The notes beneath the pieces are model-generated. The model saw only the letters and a program-made list of their open reading frames with translations. It did no database searches and was not told the origin of the DNA. A DNA stretch of 50,662 nt from Candidatus Fermentibacterota bacterium (GTDB taxonomy: Bacteria > JAFGKV01), in contig JAFGKV010000061.1 of the NCBI GenBank assembly GCA_016928395.1, forward strand, positions 1 to 50,662, written 5' to 3'. The first letter of the stretch is position 1. The number at the start of each line of letters is the position of its first letter. Positions 20,751 to 50,662 of the stretch are shown here, one piece after another. Position numbers and translations under genes: made by a program.

Positions 20751-21288
20751 GTGACCTCCTTCATGAGTCGCGGTATCGTCCACTCGCAGGGATGGAAGCC
20801 CCCCTGGCGCCCCTCTTCGCTTCGCTCCGCTCGCAGGTTCCAGAGTTCAGGCCGGCCCTCTTCACCTCCTCACCTCCTTACTTCTTCACCTCTTCGCCCC
20901 TTGACTGCCGGCCGCCGGCTCTCTCAGCTCCGCATTCCGCATTCGAAAGGCTGCCTACTACTGCCTCCGCCCGCAGGGCAGGACGTCCGTGGCGAGAGAA
21001 TCAGTGGCATAGCCCCATTCTCTCGTCACCTTCATGTCCTTCATGTTCTTCATGGTGAGATGCTTTCCTCTGTGACCTCTGTGCCTCCGTGGTGAATCTC
21101 TCCCCGGGGTCACCCCTTGACTGCCGACTGCCTCCCCTCGCAGGGCGAGGCACCCCGGAGCGGAAAGATGTGTCGCGTATGCGCCATCTTTCCGTCTCCT
21201 GCTCTTGTGCGCCTTCCTTCGTGTCCTTCGAGTCTTTGCGGTGAATCATGCCGCTCCACCTCACTCCTATCTCCTCACTCCTTCACCC
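20751..21288. repeat. mosaic intergenic repeat zone A
   Basis: About 540 bases of pyrimidine-biased, word-like repeats with no gene. Blocks: CTTCGCTCCGCTCGCAGG plus GGTTCCAGAGTTCAGG (about 20815-20850; again at 26011-26060); CTTCACCTCCT-like words (20860-20898; inverted at 50098-50135 and partly at 21270-21290); CTCCGCATTCCGCATTC (about 20929-20945; inverted at 40088-40108); CCTTCATG-TTCTTCATGGTGA words (21023-21056; again at 26304-26324); CTCTGTGACCTCTGTGCCTCCGTGGTGA (21068-21097, in parts); CCTTCGTGTCCTTCGAGTC (about 21217-21235). Each block is made of imperfectly repeated short units rather than exact tandem copies. Confidence 0.7.
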
Positions 21289-22479
21289 TCAGAACCTCCT
21301 CAGGAGGTGGACCGCCAGGCCGGTAAATGCGACCCCGTAGGCCGCCAGAATGCCCATGTAGGGCAACGTTGCGGCCACGCCACGATTGTACGCCATGATC
21401 TGGTGAAGAGCATCCATGGCCCAGGCCGTGGGAAAGACATGCCCCATGATCTGCATGAACCGCGGCACGATTTCCATGGGCCACCAACACCCCCCCAACG
21501 CAGCCATCGCCAGCGTCGCCACGATGCCCAGCCCAACCCCCGTGTCCACGGATCGCACCGATGCAGCCATGCACAGGCCCAGGCCTGCCGCGGCAAAGGC
21601 ATAGACCAGCAACACTGGGATGACCTCGACCAGGCGATACCCGATCCACACCCCGAGCCCGTGCTGCGCCACCATGGCGAGAATCCACAGGATCAGAATC
21701 TGAACCCCTCCGATCAGGAACCTACCCACCAGTTTCCCGGCGATGATCTCGCCATAGGAGGCAGGGGTTGATGACAGGTGCTGCAACAGCCCCCGTTGCC
21801 TCTCTACGACAAAGGTAGCGGTACCATGGGTGGCAAGGAGCAACAGCACCATCATGACCATAGTACCCGGCACGGTCTGCGTGAAGCCGGAAGGAGTGCC
21901 TACCACGCCCCCGACGAACGATGCCTCAACCACGACTTTCGGCGACCGATGCGTGAGTGCCTCAAAGGCGTCCAAAGGCTGTGCGGTGTCCATGCCCGCG
22001 ACCACGAACCGGGCCAGATTCTCAATGGTCGCGCGCCATGCCAGGGCCTGGGCCGCAAACCCGGCCAGTTCGCCCCCTCCGGAACCTTGGCGCAGCATGA
22101 GGCGGGCAGAGCCGTGGGAGGAGAGACTGTCCGTCAGTCCCTGAGGGATCATGAGGACCCTGGCACATCCCGCCGGCACCGTATCCGAGGATGCAACATC
22201 GCTCACGATGAACCGGTCTTTCCTCCCGTATGCAGCGGCTGCAACGCTGTCGACCATCTCATCAGACAACCGGGCAATGCTTGCCCGAATTGCACGTCCC
22301 ATGAACCCCGAATCGGCATCGGCCACACACACTCCGACCGTGGCGCCTCTGCTTCCCTCGAACTGGAGCAGAGCGAACAGCGAGGCATACACTACGGGAA
22401 ACAGCAACATCCAGAACAACGAACTGCGATCGCGCAGGACGCGCTGCGTCTCCATGATCGCGATAGCCAAGGCTCTCAA
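21289..22479 (-). CDS. ABC-2 type exporter permease (second)
   Basis: About 396 residues: an N-terminal helix (MLLFPVVYASLFALL), an extracytoplasmic domain of about 170 residues, then five to six C-terminal helices ending VAFTGLAVHLLRRF. This is the NatB/YhaP-type ABC-2 permease architecture. The start is uncertain. A TTG at 22479 overlaps the upstream TGA (TTGA) and has AAAGGTGA just before it, fitting the four-base overlaps of this operon. A GTG at 22506 and an ATG at 22455 are alternatives. It should pair with the other permease and the ATPase as a heterodimeric exporter of unknown substrate. Confidence 0.85.
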   Translation of the reverse strand: MRALAIAIMETQRVLRDRSSLFWMLLFPVVYASLFALLQFEGSRGATVGVCVADADSGFMGRAIRASIARLSDEMVDSVAAAAYGRKDRFIVSDVASSDTVPAGCARVLMIPQGLTDSLSSHGSARLMLRQGSGGGELAGFAAQALAWRATIENLARFVVAGMDTAQPLDAFEALTHRSPKVVVEASFVGGVVGTPSGFTQTVPGTMVMMVLLLLATHGTATFVVERQRGLLQHLSSTPASYGEIIAGKLVGRFLIGGVQILILWILAMVAQHGLGVWIGYRLVEVIPVLLVYAFAAAGLGLCMAASVRSVDTGVGLGIVATLAMAALGGCWWPMEIVPRFMQIMGHVFPTAWAMDALHQIMAYNRGVAATLPYMGILAAYGVAFTGLAVHLLRRF

Positions 22480-26010: not shown

Positions 26011-26350
26011 GCTTCGCTACGCTCGCAGGTTCCAGGGTTCAGGGTTCAGTGCGGCCTCTGAGGACGCCGGGCTCCCTCAGAATTCTCAGGGTTGAGAGTA
26101 CGGCCAGCAGTTGGCTCTCGGCTCTCAGCCCACTCCTTTCTCCTCACTTCTCACCCAAGGGCGCAATCGCTATTGCAATCGCTATCGCTATCGGAGCCGC
26201 AGCTCCGAGTACGAGTATGAGTACGAGGTCAGGATGTACTCTCAAACAAGCCTGGATTGCCGACTGGCCTCCAGCCCATTCTCTCATCACTCTCCCGCCT
26301 CCCTTCATGGTCTTCATGGTGAGTCCTCGCCACGCTCCGATCACTGGTAA
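26011..26350. repeat. mosaic intergenic repeat zone B, abutting tRNA-Glu
   Basis: The first block, GCTTCGCTACGCTCGCAGG followed by a doubled GGTTCAG-type word, matches 20815-20850 and begins at the base after the tRNA CCA. It is followed by CTCTCGGCTCTCAGCCC, a stretch of alternating CGCTAT/TGCAAT hexamers (about 26166-26195), GAGTACGAGTATGAGTACGAG (about 26210-26231 in parts; related inverted words at 50526-50545 and 44940-45010) and CCTTCATGGTCTTCATGGTGA (26304-26324 in parts). There is no gene, although the repeats keep long frames open. Confidence 0.7.
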
Positions 26351-30709: not shown

Positions 30710-31737
30710 AATCTCCTCCTTTGAGTTCATCTCTCGCGACCTGGGGAGGGTGCCCTTCCCCGAACGACGCGAGCAACTTGGCGAGTGATTCGACAGGTCA
30801 AGGGAGCCTCGCGGGGTCAACGGAGCCGCCCAGGGGCGGAACGTGGAATACGGAATTAGGAGTGCGAAGAACGCACATCAGTGGCGATTGGCAATCGGCA
30901 GTCACCCCGCGTCGCAGGCGGGCATCCGTCTCCGCTGAAGCTGCGACGCGAGGAGAGGGGATATTCCAGGCTCGGAGTATTATGGGCCTGGAATACTCGA
31001 TGCCTGCCACTCTCTCCCGCGAACGGACATCGAGACCGGTGTAAGCGCGTTGGTGCAGAACGTGCGTCAAGGGGAGTAGGAGGCGTTACTTCCGGGGTGG
31101 CGCTCGGGCCCCTTGAGGATCTTGCAGCAACCAACGCAGGGCGAGTTGGCGATTTGCCAACGTGCTGAAGCCGCTGAAGCGCCTATCCCAGCCGCGCTGT
31201 GTTTCGAGTTTTTCTCTCCTCGCACGCTGTCATCTTTCGTTCCGGCTTGCGGTCCGGATTCCCGGCGCGGGGATCGGTTCGGTCAGAGCATGACTGGCCC
31301 CGCCTGCGACCGTGGGCGGGCTCAGAGGCATCGTGGGACACAGGCCCCGTTCAGAAGGAGAATCTCGTGACACGCCAACGTACCCGCTTCTTTGTGTGCA
31401 GAGCCTTGGTCCCGCACCGCCGGATGCGGGATAGTGGTTCGCAGGGAGTGCTCATCCGCTTCGCTCGATCGTGGCTGAAAGCCACTTCCACCTCTTGATC
31501 TCTAGACCCTCCCGCGTTGTGCAGCAGAGCACCCACATTCAGTTCGGCGTTCTGTGCTCGGTGGTCGGATGTTCGATGTTCATTTCGCCGTCCTGTCCAT
31601 CTCGGGCCAGGAAGCACCGGCCCCATCGGGGGATGATGGCGGGCCTCGGAGCGTGTAGGTTACATTGATCGGTGAGTGATCGTGAGTGGGCAGAAAGTGC
31701 AGTCTACTTGCCCTGGGCATACATGCGAGGTGAGGGA
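30710..31737. repeat. mosaic intergenic repeat zone C
   Basis: About 1 kb without a gene. It contains GGAATACGGAATTAGGAG (30844-30862), GATTGGCAATCGGCAGTC (30885-30903), an inverted repeat TATTCCAGGC/GCCTGGAATA (30961-31005 region), a GTTGGC-gattt-GCCAAC hairpin (31145-31161) followed by CGTGCTGA and CCGCTGAAGCG, and on the minus strand a run of GAACATCGAACATC-type words (about 31540-31590). A hairpin GTGGCT-gaa-AGCCAC lies near 31470-31485. Confidence 0.6.
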
Positions 31738-39869: not shown

Positions 39870-40376
39870 CGCCACGGACGGTGCTTCCGACCACGATGTC
39901 TGCGGCGAAACACGGGTATTGCTGTACAGCGCGATGCCCCAGGCACCCCGCCAGAAGGCGAACCAGAAGTCACCATTGATGGGAGGCCTAGAGACGTTCA
40001 GGAAATTGGGGCTTGTCACTTCCCGGCCCGGGGGCAGCCCCATGGGGTCAGAGTACCAGGAGAGAGCCGAACGAATGCGGATCTCGGAGTGCGGAATGCG
40101 GAGTTTCGGGGCAGCGACGGAGCCTATTGCGCGTTGTGGCCAAGGATCTCCTCCGTTCCGGCGCGCGCCGGTGTTTGAACTCCATCCCGATCAGGACTTC
40201 TGCTCTCGGCGCGCGCTGTCACCGAGCCCTGATAGTGGCGGTGGCCGGCCCTCTCCGTATGCCTGACCGTGGCAACCTGGTCTGATGAGATCTCTGGGTG
40301 ATCCCAGGATCAACGTGCCCTCACGCTATCCTCCGCTCTCAGATGGGGCGTAGGAGTATTTTCATAAAGGAGTTCC
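39870..40376. repeat. mosaic intergenic repeat zone D
   Basis: About 500 bases without a gene. It includes GGGGCTTGTCACTTCCCGG (about 40008-40026), CGGAGTGCGGAATGCGGAG (40088-40106), which is the inverse of a block in zone A, and a CTGGG-tgat-CCCAG hairpin (40294-40307). AAAGGAG before 40377 is the site for the next gene. Confidence 0.55.
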
Positions 40377-45836: not shown

Positions 45837-47858
45837 ATGGCAGTCAGTCCCCTTGATCGTGACGATATGGCTGTGGCGGCCCTTCGTGTACTCAGCGCCC
45901 AGCAGGTGGAACAGGCCCGCTCGGGCCATCCCGGCATGCCCCTGGGGGCTGCCGATGTGGCCTTTGTGCTGTGGACGCGATTTCTCCGCCACATGCCGGA
46001 TGACCCTCAGTGGATTGCCCGCGACCGGTTCATCCTCTCGGCCGGCCACGCCTCGGCCTTGCTCTACAGCCTGCTGCACCTCTCGGGCTACGGGCTTGAC
46101 ATGGATGACCTGATTCGCTTCAGGCAGCTGGGAAGCCGGACGCCGGGCCATCCGGAACACGCCCCCGAGTTGGGGATCGAGATGACCACCGGCCCCTTGG
46201 GCCAAGGCCTGGGCGCATCGGTGGGTATGGCTCTGGGCCTGAAGATTCTGGAGGAAAGGTTCCGTTCTCCCGCGTTCCCCGGTCTTGGGTCACGGGTCTT
46301 CGTGCTGGCATCGGACGGCGACATGATGGAAGGCATCAGCAGCGAGGCTGGATCCCTAGCCGCTCACCTGGGGCTGGACAACCTCGTAGTCATCTACGAT
46401 TCCAACCGCGTGACCATCGACGGCAGCACCGAGTTGAGCTTCACTGAAGACGTCGGGCAGCGATTCCGTGCCTTTGGGTGGCATGTCACGACCGTGAACG
46501 GGCAGGACCGGCCGGCGATAGAATCCGCCCTGCATGACGCGCTGGACGGGCCTGGTGTACCGAAGCTTCTCATCGCAGAGACCGTTTTGGCCAAACACGT
46601 CCCCGGAGGTGAAGGAGACCATAGGCTCCACGGGTCTCCGTTGGGCCCACAGCGGCTTGATGGCCTGAAGCGTGCCGTGGGCTGGCCGGAGACTAAGCCT
46701 TTCTCCATCCCCGAAATCGCCTACGAGCCCTTCATGGCGCGCGTGGGCATCGTCCGCGAGGAGTATGATTCGTGGCGCAGCCGGTACGAATCATGGCGCA
46801 GCGCGGAACCTGACCGGGCTGCGGAGTTGGATGCGATGTTCACCCAAGCGATGCCCGAGAACCTGGATACCCTTGTGGCCCAAGCCGTCGGCCAGAAGGA
46901 ACAGGCCACCAGGCTGCACTCCGCCGCAGTCTTGGGGGTGGTCATGCCTACCATGCCCTGGCTTGTTGGCGGATCGGCCGACCTCACCGAGTCCAACGGC
47001 CTGCCCAAGGAACACCTGACGAGACTGTGCAAGGGTTCATACACGGGCCAGACCGTCCATTTCGGAATCCGTGAGCACGCCATGGCAGCCGCGGCCAACG
47101 GCCTCGCCCTGCTGGGCGCGTTCCGGCCCTTCATCGCGACCTTCCTCACCTTCTCTGACTACTTGCGGCCTTCCATGAGGCTGGCGGCACTGATGAAGCT
47201 GCCGGTGATCTACCTGTTCTCCCATGACAGCATCTTCCTTGGAGAGGATGGCCCCACCCATCAACCCGTGGAGCACCTGGCCTCGCTGCGAGCATTGCCG
47301 AACCTGACGGTCATGCGGCCGGCCGACGGGCCTGAGGTTGCCGCCTCCTGGGCGTGGGCCCTTCGGAGTAGATCGGGACCCATCGCCATTATCCTGTCAC
47401 GGCAGAGGGTGCCTGTGCTGCCCCGGGCCTCAACGGCGCTTCCATCGGTGGAGCGAGGCGCCTATGTTCTTGTCGACCATCCCGAGCCCGCGGCCGTCGT
47501 GGTGGCAACCGGGTCGGAGGTCGGTCTCGCAGTGGCCGCGGCGGAAATCGCGCAGCGGCACGGAGTCTCTCTCCGGGTCGTATCCATGCCCAGCATGGAG
47601 CTGTTCATGGGTCAAGGCAGCCCTTACAGGGATACCGTGCTCCCGCCCCGGTGCCCTGTCGTCGGCATCGAGGCCGCGGGCGGGTTTGGATGGGAGCGGA
47701 TCACCGGCAAGGAAGGCCTGTTCATCGGCGTCATCGGATTCGGTGCGTCGGCCCCGGCCGACTTGCTCCGTAAGGCCTACGGGCTTGACCCTGAGCCGGT
47801 TGCCCGCCAAATCATGAACTGGCTGTCCTCTCAGCCTGACAAGGAGGACCTCCCATGA
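45837..47858 (+). CDS. tkt: transketolase
   Basis: A 673-residue full-length transketolase of the non-oxidative pentose phosphate pathway. Visible are SGHPGMPLGAA (29-39), AGHASALLYSLLHL (69-82), TGPLGQG (118-124), the thiamine diphosphate motif from DGDMMEG (160-166) to N190, FGIREHAM with the catalytic Glu, and HDSIFLGEDGPTHQP. The cytoplasmic enzyme moves two-carbon units between ketose and aldose phosphates. The ATG at 45837 follows GGAGG; a longer frame from 45756 is rejected. Its stop overlaps the start of the acyl-CoA synthetase, an unusual partner. Confidence 0.97.
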   Translation: MAVSPLDRDDMAVAALRVLSAQQVEQARSGHPGMPLGAADVAFVLWTRFLRHMPDDPQWIARDRFILSAGHASALLYSLLHLSGYGLDMDDLIRFRQLGSRTPGHPEHAPELGIEMTTGPLGQGLGASVGMALGLKILEERFRSPAFPGLGSRVFVLASDGDMMEGISSEAGSLAAHLGLDNLVVIYDSNRVTIDGSTELSFTEDVGQRFRAFGWHVTTVNGQDRPAIESALHDALDGPGVPKLLIAETVLAKHVPGGEGDHRLHGSPLGPQRLDGLKRAVGWPETKPFSIPEIAYEPFMARVGIVREEYDSWRSRYESWRSAEPDRAAELDAMFTQAMPENLDTLVAQAVGQKEQATRLHSAAVLGVVMPTMPWLVGGSADLTESNGLPKEHLTRLCKGSYTGQTVHFGIREHAMAAAANGLALLGAFRPFIATFLTFSDYLRPSMRLAALMKLPVIYLFSHDSIFLGEDGPTHQPVEHLASLRALPNLTVMRPADGPEVAASWAWALRSRSGPIAIILSRQRVPVLPRASTALPSVERGAYVLVDHPEPAAVVVATGSEVGLAVAAAEIAQRHGVSLRVVSMPSMELFMGQGSPYRDTVLPPRCPVVGIEAAGGFGWERITGKEGLFIGVIGFGASAPADLLRKAYGLDPEPVARQIMNWLSSQPDKEDLP

Positions 47859-50110
47859 ACGACCATACCCAGATTCTGGCCGAGTGTCTTGATCGCGGCG
47901 CCCGCGTGCTCTTGGAGCAGGAAGCCTACCGTCTCCTGGAGATGGAGGGGCTCCCCGTGCCGGCGACGCGCCTGGTCTGCGGCGCAGAGGACGTGACAGC
48001 CGGGATGCTGAAAGGAATTCCAGGCGAGCGGGTCATCCTCAAGCTGGCCAGCAGAGCCATCACCCATAAGACAGACGTGGGCGGCATCAAGATCGTTGCC
48101 AAGGAAACCTCCGAAGTAGCGCGCGCCGTGGGCGGTATCATCAAGACCGTAACAGATCGCCATGGTAGCGGCGTGATCGACGGCGTCATGATCGCCGAAC
48201 TGGTCGACTTCTCCCCGACCTTCGGTCACGAGCTGCTGGCCGGATTCCGCCTGGACGCAGCCTTCGGGCCGGTGGTAAGCCTGGGCCTTGGCGGCATCCA
48301 TACTGAGTTCTTCCACGAGCATCTGAAACCGGCCTCAAGCCTGCGATCGTGCTCGGCCCTGGCCGTACGCATGGAGCACCTGTTGAAAGGTTCAGCCCTG
48401 GAGCGCCCGCTTCTGGGGCAACTCCGAGGGCAACGGAAAGCGCCCATTTCCCAAGACACGTTGAGGTCGTTCATGGAGACTCTGGCCGCGATGGCGCGGG
48501 ACTCGTATGCAGCCTGTCCCGGCGAGCCAAGACTCGCGGAAATGGAGATCAACCCCGTGGTGGTCGATTCCCGGGGCAGGCTGGTTGTTCTGGACGCCGT
48601 AGCCAGGGTGGAACGGGCGCCCGAGGCCCTACCCGGCAGGCCACTGCGGAAGATCACGAAGCTGTTGAGGCCGACGAGCGCTCTGGTGGCCGGCGCCAGC
48701 ACCAAGGGCATGAACTCCGGCCGGATCATCCTGCGCAATCTGCTGGAGGGGGGCGGGGTTCCCAAAGAGCGTATCTATGGGCTTCATCCTGCGGCGACTG
48801 AGATCGACGGGGTTCGATGCTTTGCGAGACTGAGTGATCTTCCCGAGCGAGTGGATATGGCAGTCATCGCCATCCCCGCGGCCGGAGGCGCGGATCGTGT
48901 GGTGTGCGACCTGGTGGAGCACGAGGCCGTGCACAGCATTACCCTCATTCCCGGGGGATTCGCCGAAACCGAAGGCGGCAAGGAACGGGAACAGCGGCTT
49001 CGCGATGCCTTGGCCGCATCTCACGCGAAACCTGACGGCGGCGTGATCCTCAACGGCGGCAACTGCCTGGGCATCGTGTCCAACCCGGGCGGATACAACA
49101 CCTTCTTCTTGCCCAAGTACAAGCTGCCGTTCACCCCCGCGAAGGGCGACAATCTGGCTGCCATCAGCCAGAGCGGGGCCTATCTGGTAACCCAGGCCAG
49201 CACGTTCGACGGCGTGATCAATCCCCGCTATTCCATCAGCGTGGGCAATCAAGTCGATCTCACGGTCGGCGACTATCTGCTCTACCTCGTCGAAGAGGAA
49301 GGGTTGGAGGTATTCTCTGTCTACGTGGAAGGCTTCCAGCCCGGCGACGGGCTTCAGTTCCTCAACTCCACCCGGCACGCTACCGCAGCCGGCAAGGCCG
49401 TGCTGCTCTACAAAGCGGGCCGCAGCCCCGAAGGCGCCCGGGCCGCCAGTTCGCATACCGCCAGCATGGTCGGCGATTATGATACCGCGGCGGCCTTGGC
49501 AGCCCAGGCGGGTGCGGTGGTATGCGATACTCTGGATCAGTACCAGGATCTGACCCTGGCGTTTTCCCTTCTCTGGTCGAGACCTCCTGCGGGCAACAAG
49601 GTTGGCGTGATCAGCAATGCCGGCTTCGAGGCCACCGCCTCGGCCGATCGCCTGGGTTCCCTGCGTCTGGCCGATCTCTTGCCTGAGACTCTGGAGAACC
49701 TGACCAAGGCTTTGCCCGAGGATGTCATCGATGCGCACAATCCTCTGGATGTGACCCCGGTCACCAACACCGAAGGATTCGCGCGCTGCGTTGACCTGAT
49801 GCTGGATGACCCCACTGTGGATTGCGTGGTGGTCAGCCCGGTGCCCCCTACGCCCGCGCTGAACAACCTGCCGCCGTCGGAGATGCACAGGGAGAATGTC
49901 TATGATCCGGCCAGCCTGCCTTCGCGGTTGATCGACTTGTTCAAGAAGACGCAGAAGCCTATGGTTTTCTGTGTGGATTCGGGGCCGCTGTACGATCCGA
50001 TGGTGCGGATGCTTCTGGAAGCGGGTGCCCCCTGCTACCGTCATATCGACCGCGCCATGGCCGCCCTGTCCTCCTTCGTGGCTGTTCGCTCCAGAGAAGT
50101 AAGGAAGTAA
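47855..50110 (+). CDS. ADP-forming acyl-CoA (acetate-CoA) ligase, beta-alpha fusion
   Basis: A 751-residue fused NDP-forming acyl-CoA synthetase, interconverting acyl-CoA, ADP and Pi with acid, CoA and ATP. The N-terminal 255 residues are the ATP-grasp beta unit (VILKLASRAITHKTDVGG, EMEINPVVV), then the CoA-binding Rossmann domain (about 268-400; VAGASTKGMNSGR) and two succinyl-CoA-ligase-like domains. The phosphorylated His is H534 in AASSHTASMVGD. The beta-alpha order is the reverse of the Pat/AcsA-type fusion. It lets the cell make ATP from acyl-CoA. The ATG overlaps the tkt stop (ATGA). The last codons run into a purine-rich repeat (GTAAGGAAGTAAAGAAGTGA). Confidence 0.92.
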   Translation: MNDHTQILAECLDRGARVLLEQEAYRLLEMEGLPVPATRLVCGAEDVTAGMLKGIPGERVILKLASRAITHKTDVGGIKIVAKETSEVARAVGGIIKTVTDRHGSGVIDGVMIAELVDFSPTFGHELLAGFRLDAAFGPVVSLGLGGIHTEFFHEHLKPASSLRSCSALAVRMEHLLKGSALERPLLGQLRGQRKAPISQDTLRSFMETLAAMARDSYAACPGEPRLAEMEINPVVVDSRGRLVVLDAVARVERAPEALPGRPLRKITKLLRPTSALVAGASTKGMNSGRIILRNLLEGGGVPKERIYGLHPAATEIDGVRCFARLSDLPERVDMAVIAIPAAGGADRVVCDLVEHEAVHSITLIPGGFAETEGGKEREQRLRDALAASHAKPDGGVILNGGNCLGIVSNPGGYNTFFLPKYKLPFTPAKGDNLAAISQSGAYLVTQASTFDGVINPRYSISVGNQVDLTVGDYLLYLVEEEGLEVFSVYVEGFQPGDGLQFLNSTRHATAAGKAVLLYKAGRSPEGARAASSHTASMVGDYDTAAALAAQAGAVVCDTLDQYQDLTLAFSLLWSRPPAGNKVGVISNAGFEATASADRLGSLRLADLLPETLENLTKALPEDVIDAHNPLDVTPVTNTEGFARCVDLMLDDPTVDCVVVSPVPPTPALNNLPPSEMHRENVYDPASLPSRLIDLFKKTQKPMVFCVDSGPLYDPMVRMLLEAGAPCYRHIDRAMAALSSFVAVRSREVRK

Positions 50111-50662
50111 AGAAGTGAAGAGGTGAAATGGTCAACCGGTCGGGAGTTCGGGCTGAACCCTTGTGTGAGAGTCCGCGCAAAGCCCGTACACGTGCACGTA
50201 CGCGTATTCGACGGCCCCCTCGTCGATTGCGACCGCGATGGCGCCCATCAACGATGTAGGAGGGCCTTCAGGCCCGACAGGAGCGGCGTGTCGCGGCTGA
50301 AGCCGCTCCTACGAGGCAACGGCGTCGGGGACGTCTCAGGGACCTGTGCCCTCCCGCTCAGTGCGCCGTACTCTCAACCCTTGGGAGATCTGAGTGCGCC
50401 TTCGCCCTCAGAGGCTCGCCTGAACCCTGAACCCAAACCTGTAGCTCCATGCCGCCGTGCGCGGAGTTGCACCAGGTATCGTCCGGGCTGGCCCGGGGCC
50501 CCCACTTGTTCCAGAGAACATGCAAAGCTCGTACTCGTATTCGAATGCCCGACTCGTCGATTCCGATGGCGATGGCGGCCCCGAACCCCCGGCGGGCGAC
50601 GGGAGACGGTCGCCCCTACGAGGGCTGGTGCCCATCATGTCCGTAGGGGCGGGACTCTGTGC
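50111..50662. repeat. mosaic intergenic repeat zone F
   Basis: No gene to the window end. Blocks: GTGAAGAGGTGAA (50116-50128, inverse of zone A words); two related blocks CGTATTCGAC..CTCGTCGATTGCGA (50205-50231) and CGTATTCGAATG..ACTCGTCGATTCCGA (50534-50571); hairpin-forming GGAGGGCCTTCAGGCCC (50250-50267) and GGAGCGGC..GCGGCTGAAGCCGCTCC (50279-50311); CCTGAACCCTGAACCC (50419-50434); and GACGGTCGCCCCTACG / GTAGGGGCGGGAC (50604-50653). Confidence 0.65.

Follow-up and report, generated by a model that had tools for sequence, protein, structure and literature searches.

Word-like intergenic repeats of a Candidatus Fermentibacterota genome as probable terminal arms of two kinds of small one-gene elements

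The chains of short, near-repeated words that crowd certain intergenic gaps of this genome probably represent terminal arms of one-gene elements, of which there are two analogous kinds; those in the window are mostly orphan, ORF-less arms. The window, i.e. the whole stretch of 50,662 nucleotides that was analyzed, is an entire contig (C91) of a draft genome of 4.79 Mb; its lineage has been sampled sparsely, and the available relatives include only one genus mate and one family mate. A complete element has one small ORF with an inverted arm of ~30 bases on either side and approximately three tandem units per arm: the unit is 7 bases long if the ORF codes for a PF05635 protein and ~9 (9-11) bases long if it codes for a GxxExxY protein (PF13366). 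Much more than their sequence, it is the period and the mutual complementarity of the arms that are kept. That the words of the window are arms of this element kind is very likely, with the octamer TTCACCTC and the CTTCATG nonamer being classed as arms by their form, as no gene-bearing copy with them was found in this genome.

The gap under study extends from approximately 20784 to 21288, with 20751-20783 being the beginning of a minus-strand gene; ten arrays or hairpins fall in 20816-21288, and the arrays of the gap share a single orientation. The original prediction had the blocks of this gap recur in distant gaps, several of them inverted. The words are indeed also found at 26012-26325, 30842-30903, 40073-40103, 50096-50131 and 50419-50434, and the last three blocks are inverted relative to the first. 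The features are as follows:

20784-21288, no strand: gap between two minus-strand genes, crammed with orphan word arrays and two hairpins
20816-20851, plus: TTCGCTTCGCTCCGCTCGCAGGTTCCAGAGTTCAGG, GTTCAGG heptamers in degenerate form; also at 26012-26049 and in other places of the genome
20860-20900, plus: TTCACCTC-type array of period 8; 50/Mb here versus 0.7/Mb in the loci of other genomes
20928-20944, plus: CGCATTC heptamer array
20989-21029, no strand: hairpin GTGGCGAGAGAAT..ATTCTCTCGTCAC; belongs to a hairpin family spread over the genome and is not an arm
21029-21059, plus: CTTCATGNN nonamer array with GGTGAG end; solo arm type
21067-21098, plus: CTCTGTGNC nonamer array with GGTGAATC end; GxxExxY-type solo arm, its word common to many phyla
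21116-21132, plus: GACTGCC heptamer pair
21157-21199, no strand: hairpin GGAAAGATG..CATCTTTCC; of the same hairpin family, with a variant stem
21212-21247, plus: CTTCGTGTC / CTTTGCGG nonamer array with GGTGAATC end; solo arm
21259-21288, plus: CTCACTC / CTATCTC heptamer array
26012-26049, plus: TTCGCT...GTTCAGGGTTCAG array immediately after tRNA-Glu; the word of the C231 PF05635 arms
26111-26129, plus: GGCTCTC heptamer pair; the word of the C206 PF05635 arms
26131-26155, plus: CTCACTTC-type array
26162-26194, plus: ATCGCT hexamer array; no protein partner found
26207-26227, plus: GAGTAC hexamer array; no protein partner found
26255-26269, plus: GATTGCCGACTGGCC, heptamer word
26302-26325, plus: CTTCATGGT nonamer pair with GGTGAGTC end
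30842-30903, minus: decayed GCATTC-like and GACTGCC-like words, in inverse orientation
40073-40103, minus: CGCATTC heptamer array, in inverse orientation
50096-50131, minus: TTCACCTC-type array, inverse; starts within the last codons of the gene at 47855-50110
50419-50434, minus: GTTCAGG heptamer array, in inverse orientation

As originally described, the units are tandem and degenerate. Their main lengths are 7 and ~9 bases. The heptamers are GTTCAGG, GGCTCTC, GACTGCC/GATTGCC, CTCACTC and CGCATTC; the nonamers are CTTCATGNN, CTCTGTGNC and CTTCGTG/CTTTGCG, with GGTGAATC or GGTGAG terminating most of them; and there is further the octamer TTCACCTC and the hexamers ATCGCT and GAGTAC. Tandem Repeats Finder places 7 of its 28 rows for the window in or across 20857-21291. 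The blocks share 57 distinct 9-mers, 42 10-mers and 20 12-mers with each other, as against means of 8.0, 2.1 and 0.16 (maxima 22, 11 and 5) in 500 dinucleotide-preserving shuffles, and the score for tandem-identity runs (lags 6-9) is 46 versus a shuffle mean of 2.4 and maximum of 12. The words are also in excess in 233 kb of the same genome: CTCYGTGNNCTCYGTG, GTTCAGGGTTCAG and CTTCACCYCYTCAC, for instance, occur 8, 9 and 7 times, respectively, and not once in a first-order Markov resample. The shuffle and Markov counts thus exclude that the words are no more frequent than in a shuffled background. The window itself is without a PF13366 or PF05635 gene; therefore, its arrays are orphans, mostly ORF-less arms piled up in gaps. 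No rRNA was detected in it with Rfam.

Certain repeats of the window are not arms or have no assigned partner. The two hairpins of the gap (20989-21029 and 21157-21199) belong to a family GTGRCGAGAGAATG-N-CATTCTCTCGYCAC that is also found in loci L020, L027, L251, L252 and L257; its loops vary, its stems are variant and still complementary, CCCGCAGGGC(G)AGGCA often adjoins it, and it is the arm of neither element kind. Arrays of the ATCGCT and GAGTAC/CGTACA hexamers occur in the window at 26162-26227, 50185-50206 and 50525-50580, and recur in L012, L019, L022 and L250, with no partner protein found. In the window the GAGAGAATG hairpins are likewise without a protein partner, as are the ATCGCT and GAGTAC words.

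Complete elements are present elsewhere in the same genome, which has one GxxExxY gene and four PF05635 matches, every one of them lying between word arms. The sole GxxExxY gene (on C126) is bounded by the arms ATCCCGCAGAGACGCAGAGGCGCAGAG and CTCTGCGTCTCTGCGTCTCTGCGGGAT, and the PF05635 matches come with arms of GGCTNTC (C206), GTTCAGG (C231), TGGAATG (C153) and the GACCGATC type (C10, where the match is weak, sub-threshold and within a longer frame). Two of these arm words are words of the window: GTTCAGG from the C231 arms at 26012-26049 and 50419-50434, and GGCTCTC from the C206 arms at 26111-26129. Dimers of GTTCAGG and GGCTNTC reach 64/Mb and 47/Mb here versus 0 and 1.5/Mb in the loci of other genomes, these rates being upper estimates because the genome was sampled in part for its word content. 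At the C10 locus (L293 of G000) the PF05635 match and its GACCGATC-type arms seem to be read through in one 286-codon frame, and the element appears as if absorbed into a host gene. Word arrays are also frequent at contig ends (C6, C24, C56, C69 and C187 of G000, and the end of the window); hence, they interrupt the draft assembly, and the copy numbers are probably too low. In the relative G001 there are no words beside the orthologous gene; the other neighbour differs, and hence this is not a clean empty site.

The link between words and genes extends to other genomes. Among 131 CTCTGTG words, an inverted partner is found in convergent arrangement for 79 and in divergent arrangement for 6; the partner of the nonamer array lies upstream, mostly less than 200 bp away, and every 400-500 bp loop between paired CTCTGTG words is a GxxExxY ORF. 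PF13366 is present in 26 of 29 genomes picked by the CTCTGTG word versus 70 of 290 others, a domain-wide genome sample in which PF13366 genes were taken regardless of words (OR 27, p 3e-12), and it co-occurs with PF05635 (OR 7.2, p 2e-11). Most of the GxxExxY genes collected in this word-blind manner are flanked by inverted word arrays with few spare bases. The heptamers were predicted, and then found, to flank genes of PF05635, the four-helix-bundle protein of 23S rRNA intervening sequences.

To score the arms, we took the best match between the upstream 140 bp and the reverse-complemented downstream 140 bp in enlarged word-blind sets of 69 GxxExxY and 73 PF05635 genes, in which a few loci come from the same genome and, therefore, not all are independent. 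The median score is 17.0 for GxxExxY and 18.0 for PF05635; exchanging arms between loci lowers it to 8.0 and 7.5, and the controls, 188 neighbouring genes of the same loci, have 8.0 (own-arm excess: p 4e-21 and 4e-20, respectively). By the 95% cut-off of these neighbours, clear arms are found in 42/69 GxxExxY and 45/73 PF05635 loci, leaving ~40% of the ORFs without them. Against a base level of ~0.25, lags 7 and 14 give an autocorrelation of 0.69 and 0.68 in the PF05635 arms; in the GxxExxY arms it is highest at lag 9, with 0.48, followed by 0.35 at lags 10 and 11. The upstream neighbour is on the strand of the ORF in 137/148 cases and the downstream one in 120/148, compared to 83/113 for ordinary adjacent genes, the figures being approximate because genes were called as greedy longest ORFs. 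Clear left arms follow shortly on the stop codon of the upstream gene, the median distance to their start being 3 bp for PF05635 and 17 bp for GxxExxY. Taken together, these loci display a family-specific period, locus-specific arm pairing and sense placement close after a stop codon. Among arm mismatches, G.U exceeds A.C in PF05635 (54:31, p 0.017), and the ratio of 59:49 in GxxExxY is not significant. Direct repeats in the flanks of 44 pairs are at chance level, i.e. no target-site duplication was found; inverted complementarity reaches beyond the arms into the flanks to a small, significant extent, which is suggestive of palindromic target sites. Our literature searches, by sequence words and family names and with thin coverage of subscription papers, returned no publication tying either protein to these repeats.

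The site between radA and the gene for a FAD-dependent protein in Bacteroides shows filled and unfilled states side by side: 9 of 60 genomes have a GxxExxY element of 454-500 bp there, and others have spacers of 24, 31 or 65 bp. In still others the site has a decayed solo arm, an insert of ORF size lacking clear arms, or an ORF-less inverted heptamer pair. The arms are of the CACAGAG or the CACAGATT type and are usually matched within a site (L261 is mixed); even at these orthologous sites an element's own arms pair better (29.3) than swapped ones (21.7). The heptamer pair, in L278 of Bacteroides G350, sits where other species have their GxxExxY elements, in the radA-side gap, which hints at a hot spot of insertion common to both element kinds. 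Two ORF-less copies at different loci of one genome (L381 and L383) have 80 bp of end sequence in common, and the elements in L387 and B. fragilis L047 align end to end with differing immediate flanks, at loci that may be orthologous. No insertion was caught between near-identical strains; the comparable ORF-less locus of G327 and G377 is filled in both.

The exact nonamer array CTCTGTGNCCTCTGTGN{1,2}CTCTGTGGTGA, used as a pattern to scan species-representative genomes, has at least 117 matching stretches. The matches listed include Planctomycetota, Chloroflexota, Bacteroidota, Acidobacteriota, Myxococcales and other Deltaproteobacteria, Pseudomonadota, Cyanobacteria, Verrucomicrobiota, Sumerlaeota, Hydrogenedentota, Cloacimonadota and others, and isolates such as Bacteroides fragilis Q1F2, Methylobacter luteus and Baaleninema simplex. 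Therefore, the nonamer is neither the property of one genome nor a binning artefact. Similar words had been anticipated in unrelated bacteria: this holds for the CTCTGTG nonamer array, which is exact in many phyla, cultured isolates included, and is the one nonamer that the exact cross-phylum identity covers, whereas the heptamers are mostly lineage-restricted. For instance, there are 16 occurrences of GGTTCAGGx3 in this genome and 10 in the family mate, and one other genome has it as well, i.e. 3 of 290 genomes, two of them from this family; GATTGCCGx3 is found in 2 of 290 (this genome and one other), and reversed control patterns of the heptamer triplets gave zero matches in the 290. Plasmids are nearly devoid of the elements (8 of 72,556), phages gave no element matches, and a single 32-base word query for polymorphism in E. 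coli returned no match.

The ORFs of complete copies belong to TIGR04256/PF13366 or PF05635, with no known transposase among them. For the GxxExxY protein a PD-(D/E)XK nuclease fold is predicted with high confidence (pLDDT 93.8), with Cas4 SSO0001 (4ic1) as the nearest structure (VIA Z 10.0, 101 residues, rmsd 4.5) and weaker matches to lambda exonuclease and Hjc; no solved structure was recovered for it by sequence. Five diverse GxxExxY proteins have the E of GxxExxY, D66, E76, K78, Q90 and Y94 as invariant residues. The modeled fold and the D..ExK motif place the family in the PD-(D/E)XK nuclease superfamily. PF05635, with the solved relatives 2gsc and 2rld, is the protein of rRNA intervening sequences (PMC4990558) and resembles Avd of the diversity-generating retroelements (PMC10053308). 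Its genes have been recorded within cas operons (PMC3936711), which fits insertion between operon genes.

Several known systems share features with the elements. In the intervening sequences of the 23S rRNA of Coxiella, Leptospira and Salmonella a small ORF, often PF05635 (S23), likewise lies between complementary stem-forming ends, as in our heptamer kind, and their scattered distribution is thought to reflect horizontal transfer (PMC4990558). However, they reside in an rRNA gene, whereas ours lie between protein genes, such as radA and the gene for the FAD-dependent protein in Bacteroides; moreover, our arms consist of 7-base words in tandem and vary from copy to copy, GxxExxY takes the place of PF05635 in a second kind, and ORF-less copies and solo arms are abundant. 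Few gene copies flanked by inverted repeats and ORF-less relatives dispersed between genes recall the REPIN-RAYT and MITE systems (PMC3116915); unlike those, our arms are tandem word arrays without a fixed sequence, and the proteins have a PD-(D/E)XK fold or a four-helix bundle rather than being the Y1 transposase of REPIN-RAYT. Terminal inverted repeats are shared with classical insertion sequences and MITEs, but neither a target-site duplication nor a known transposase was found. Some insertion sequences produce no target-site duplication. The cyanobacterial STRR repeats and the TAACTGA repeats of Beggiatoaceae, Cyanobacteria and Bacteroidetes are also intergenic tandem heptamers, of horizontal-looking distribution and with no mechanism known (PMC4679880); here, the heptamer arrays are the inverted arms of PF05635 genes. 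No locus in the flanks of the PF05635 sample has two or more copies of TAACTGA. With the diversity-generating retroelements the likeness is that of Avd to PF05635 (PMC10053308), the association with reverse transcriptases being weak here.

The original prediction denied exact-copy transposition. The arrays are indeed not simple exact-copy insertions; however, as the words are the arms of two small gene-bearing element kinds, mobile elements are probably involved after all, and we think it fairly probable that the elements are or were mobile. The constant unit length, the arm complementarity and the sense placement after a stop codon point to a hairpin as the functional form. It could act as RNA, with RNase III excising or insulating the element in the operon mRNA, as in the rRNA intervening sequences; the weak G.U excess of the PF05635 arms leans to an RNA stem, whereas the GxxExxY set does not. 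It could also act as a DNA cruciform cut by the nuclease, which would be a natural substrate for a Hjc- or Cas4-like enzyme. That the RNA stem is the working state is possible, at somewhat below even chances. Either form would agree with elements that seldom move and often decay to solo arms, as seen in the window: loss of the ORF and decay of the arms might leave the solo arms, and slippage with template switching at the palindrome might keep units and arms alike within a copy as they drift between copies.

Slippage could instead be the entire explanation, the words being ordinary degenerate microsatellites, palindromic via template switching, with no gene-bearing element behind them. The short, tandem, degenerate units and the absent target duplications agree with this, and slippage with template switching would account for arms changing together, but two gene families that lie, in lineage after lineage, between matching inverted arrays with a family-specific period, an identical long array in many phyla, and filled and empty states at one site are not predicted by it; we consider it improbable. 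As for the arms being regulatory sites, i.e. translation or termination signals of neighbouring operon genes, which has been proposed for the TAACTGA heptamers in Beggiatoaceae (PMC4679880), their location close after stop codons and often just 5' of start codons would be in order; yet some orthologous Bacteroides sites are wholly without arms, and the arms follow the family of the enclosed ORF rather than the neighbour genes, making this very improbable.

The elements might also operate solely at the RNA level, as intergenic relatives of the rRNA intervening sequences: their arms would fold in the mRNA of the operon, RNase III would cut them, and insertion via RNA or cDNA would give rise to the sense bias. 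The GxxExxY set runs counter to this in its DNA-nuclease-like fold and the lack of a significant G.U excess, as does the presence of reverse transcriptases without a clear association to either family; hence we take it as unlikely, even though PF05635 is the protein of intervening sequences whose complementary ends are cut by RNase III (PMC4990558), resembles Avd (PMC10053308) and has the G.U excess, and though sense orientation after stop codons is prevalent (the above 137/148). A DNA element in the style of REPIN-RAYT or MITEs, in which the small ORF is the mobilising enzyme that recognizes the arm hairpin or cruciform and moves ORF-less copies in trans, is a possible if rather doubtful alternative. 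It is consistent with genomes having one or few copies with the ORF but many similar-armed pairs without it, with the arms in the genome under study being its dispersed words, and with the GxxExxY fold resembling Cas4, lambda exonuclease and Hjc and keeping D..ExK..QxxxY. But neither protein is known as a transposase, no catalytic site is known for PF05635, target duplications were not found, and the sense bias demands an extra reason; this bias could come from selection for expression instead of from insertion itself.

Returning to arms of one-gene elements as the source of the words, we tentatively propose, at close to even chances, an unnamed class of minimal mobile elements with at least two parallel kinds, arms set by unit length and complementarity, and sense insertion after stop codons, whose ORF-less and solo-arm derivatives make up much of the word-like intergenic DNA of bacteria, the published heptamer repeats included. 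Such a class would give a concrete origin to a large unexplained share of the repetitive intergenic DNA of uncultured and cultured bacteria, and tie two widespread proteins of unexplained function, GxxExxY and the four-helix bundle, to a common genetic architecture. It would imply an unusual rule for element ends, in which period and pairing are kept while the sequence drifts, with arms being locus-specific and yet self-complementary. The problem that "no mechanism is evident" for the horizontally spread heptamers (PMC4679880) would thereby become directly testable.

The original prediction had also proposed a reverse transcriptase or a HUH nuclease as the copying enzyme, and neither is borne out. 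This genome has three reverse transcriptase matches, but across the 290 genomes RVT_1 is present in 87 and its association with the two families reaches p values of only 0.05 and 0.15. None of the five Y1 genes in the genome is flanked by the words. Two of these five are near GTAG repeats, and it seems that an ordinary REP/RAYT-like system coexists with the words. GTAG-tagged REP-like palindromes (GTAGGAG..CTCCTAC, GTAGGGG..) occur in the window at 50255-50318 and 50640-50662, and also in L405 and L406.
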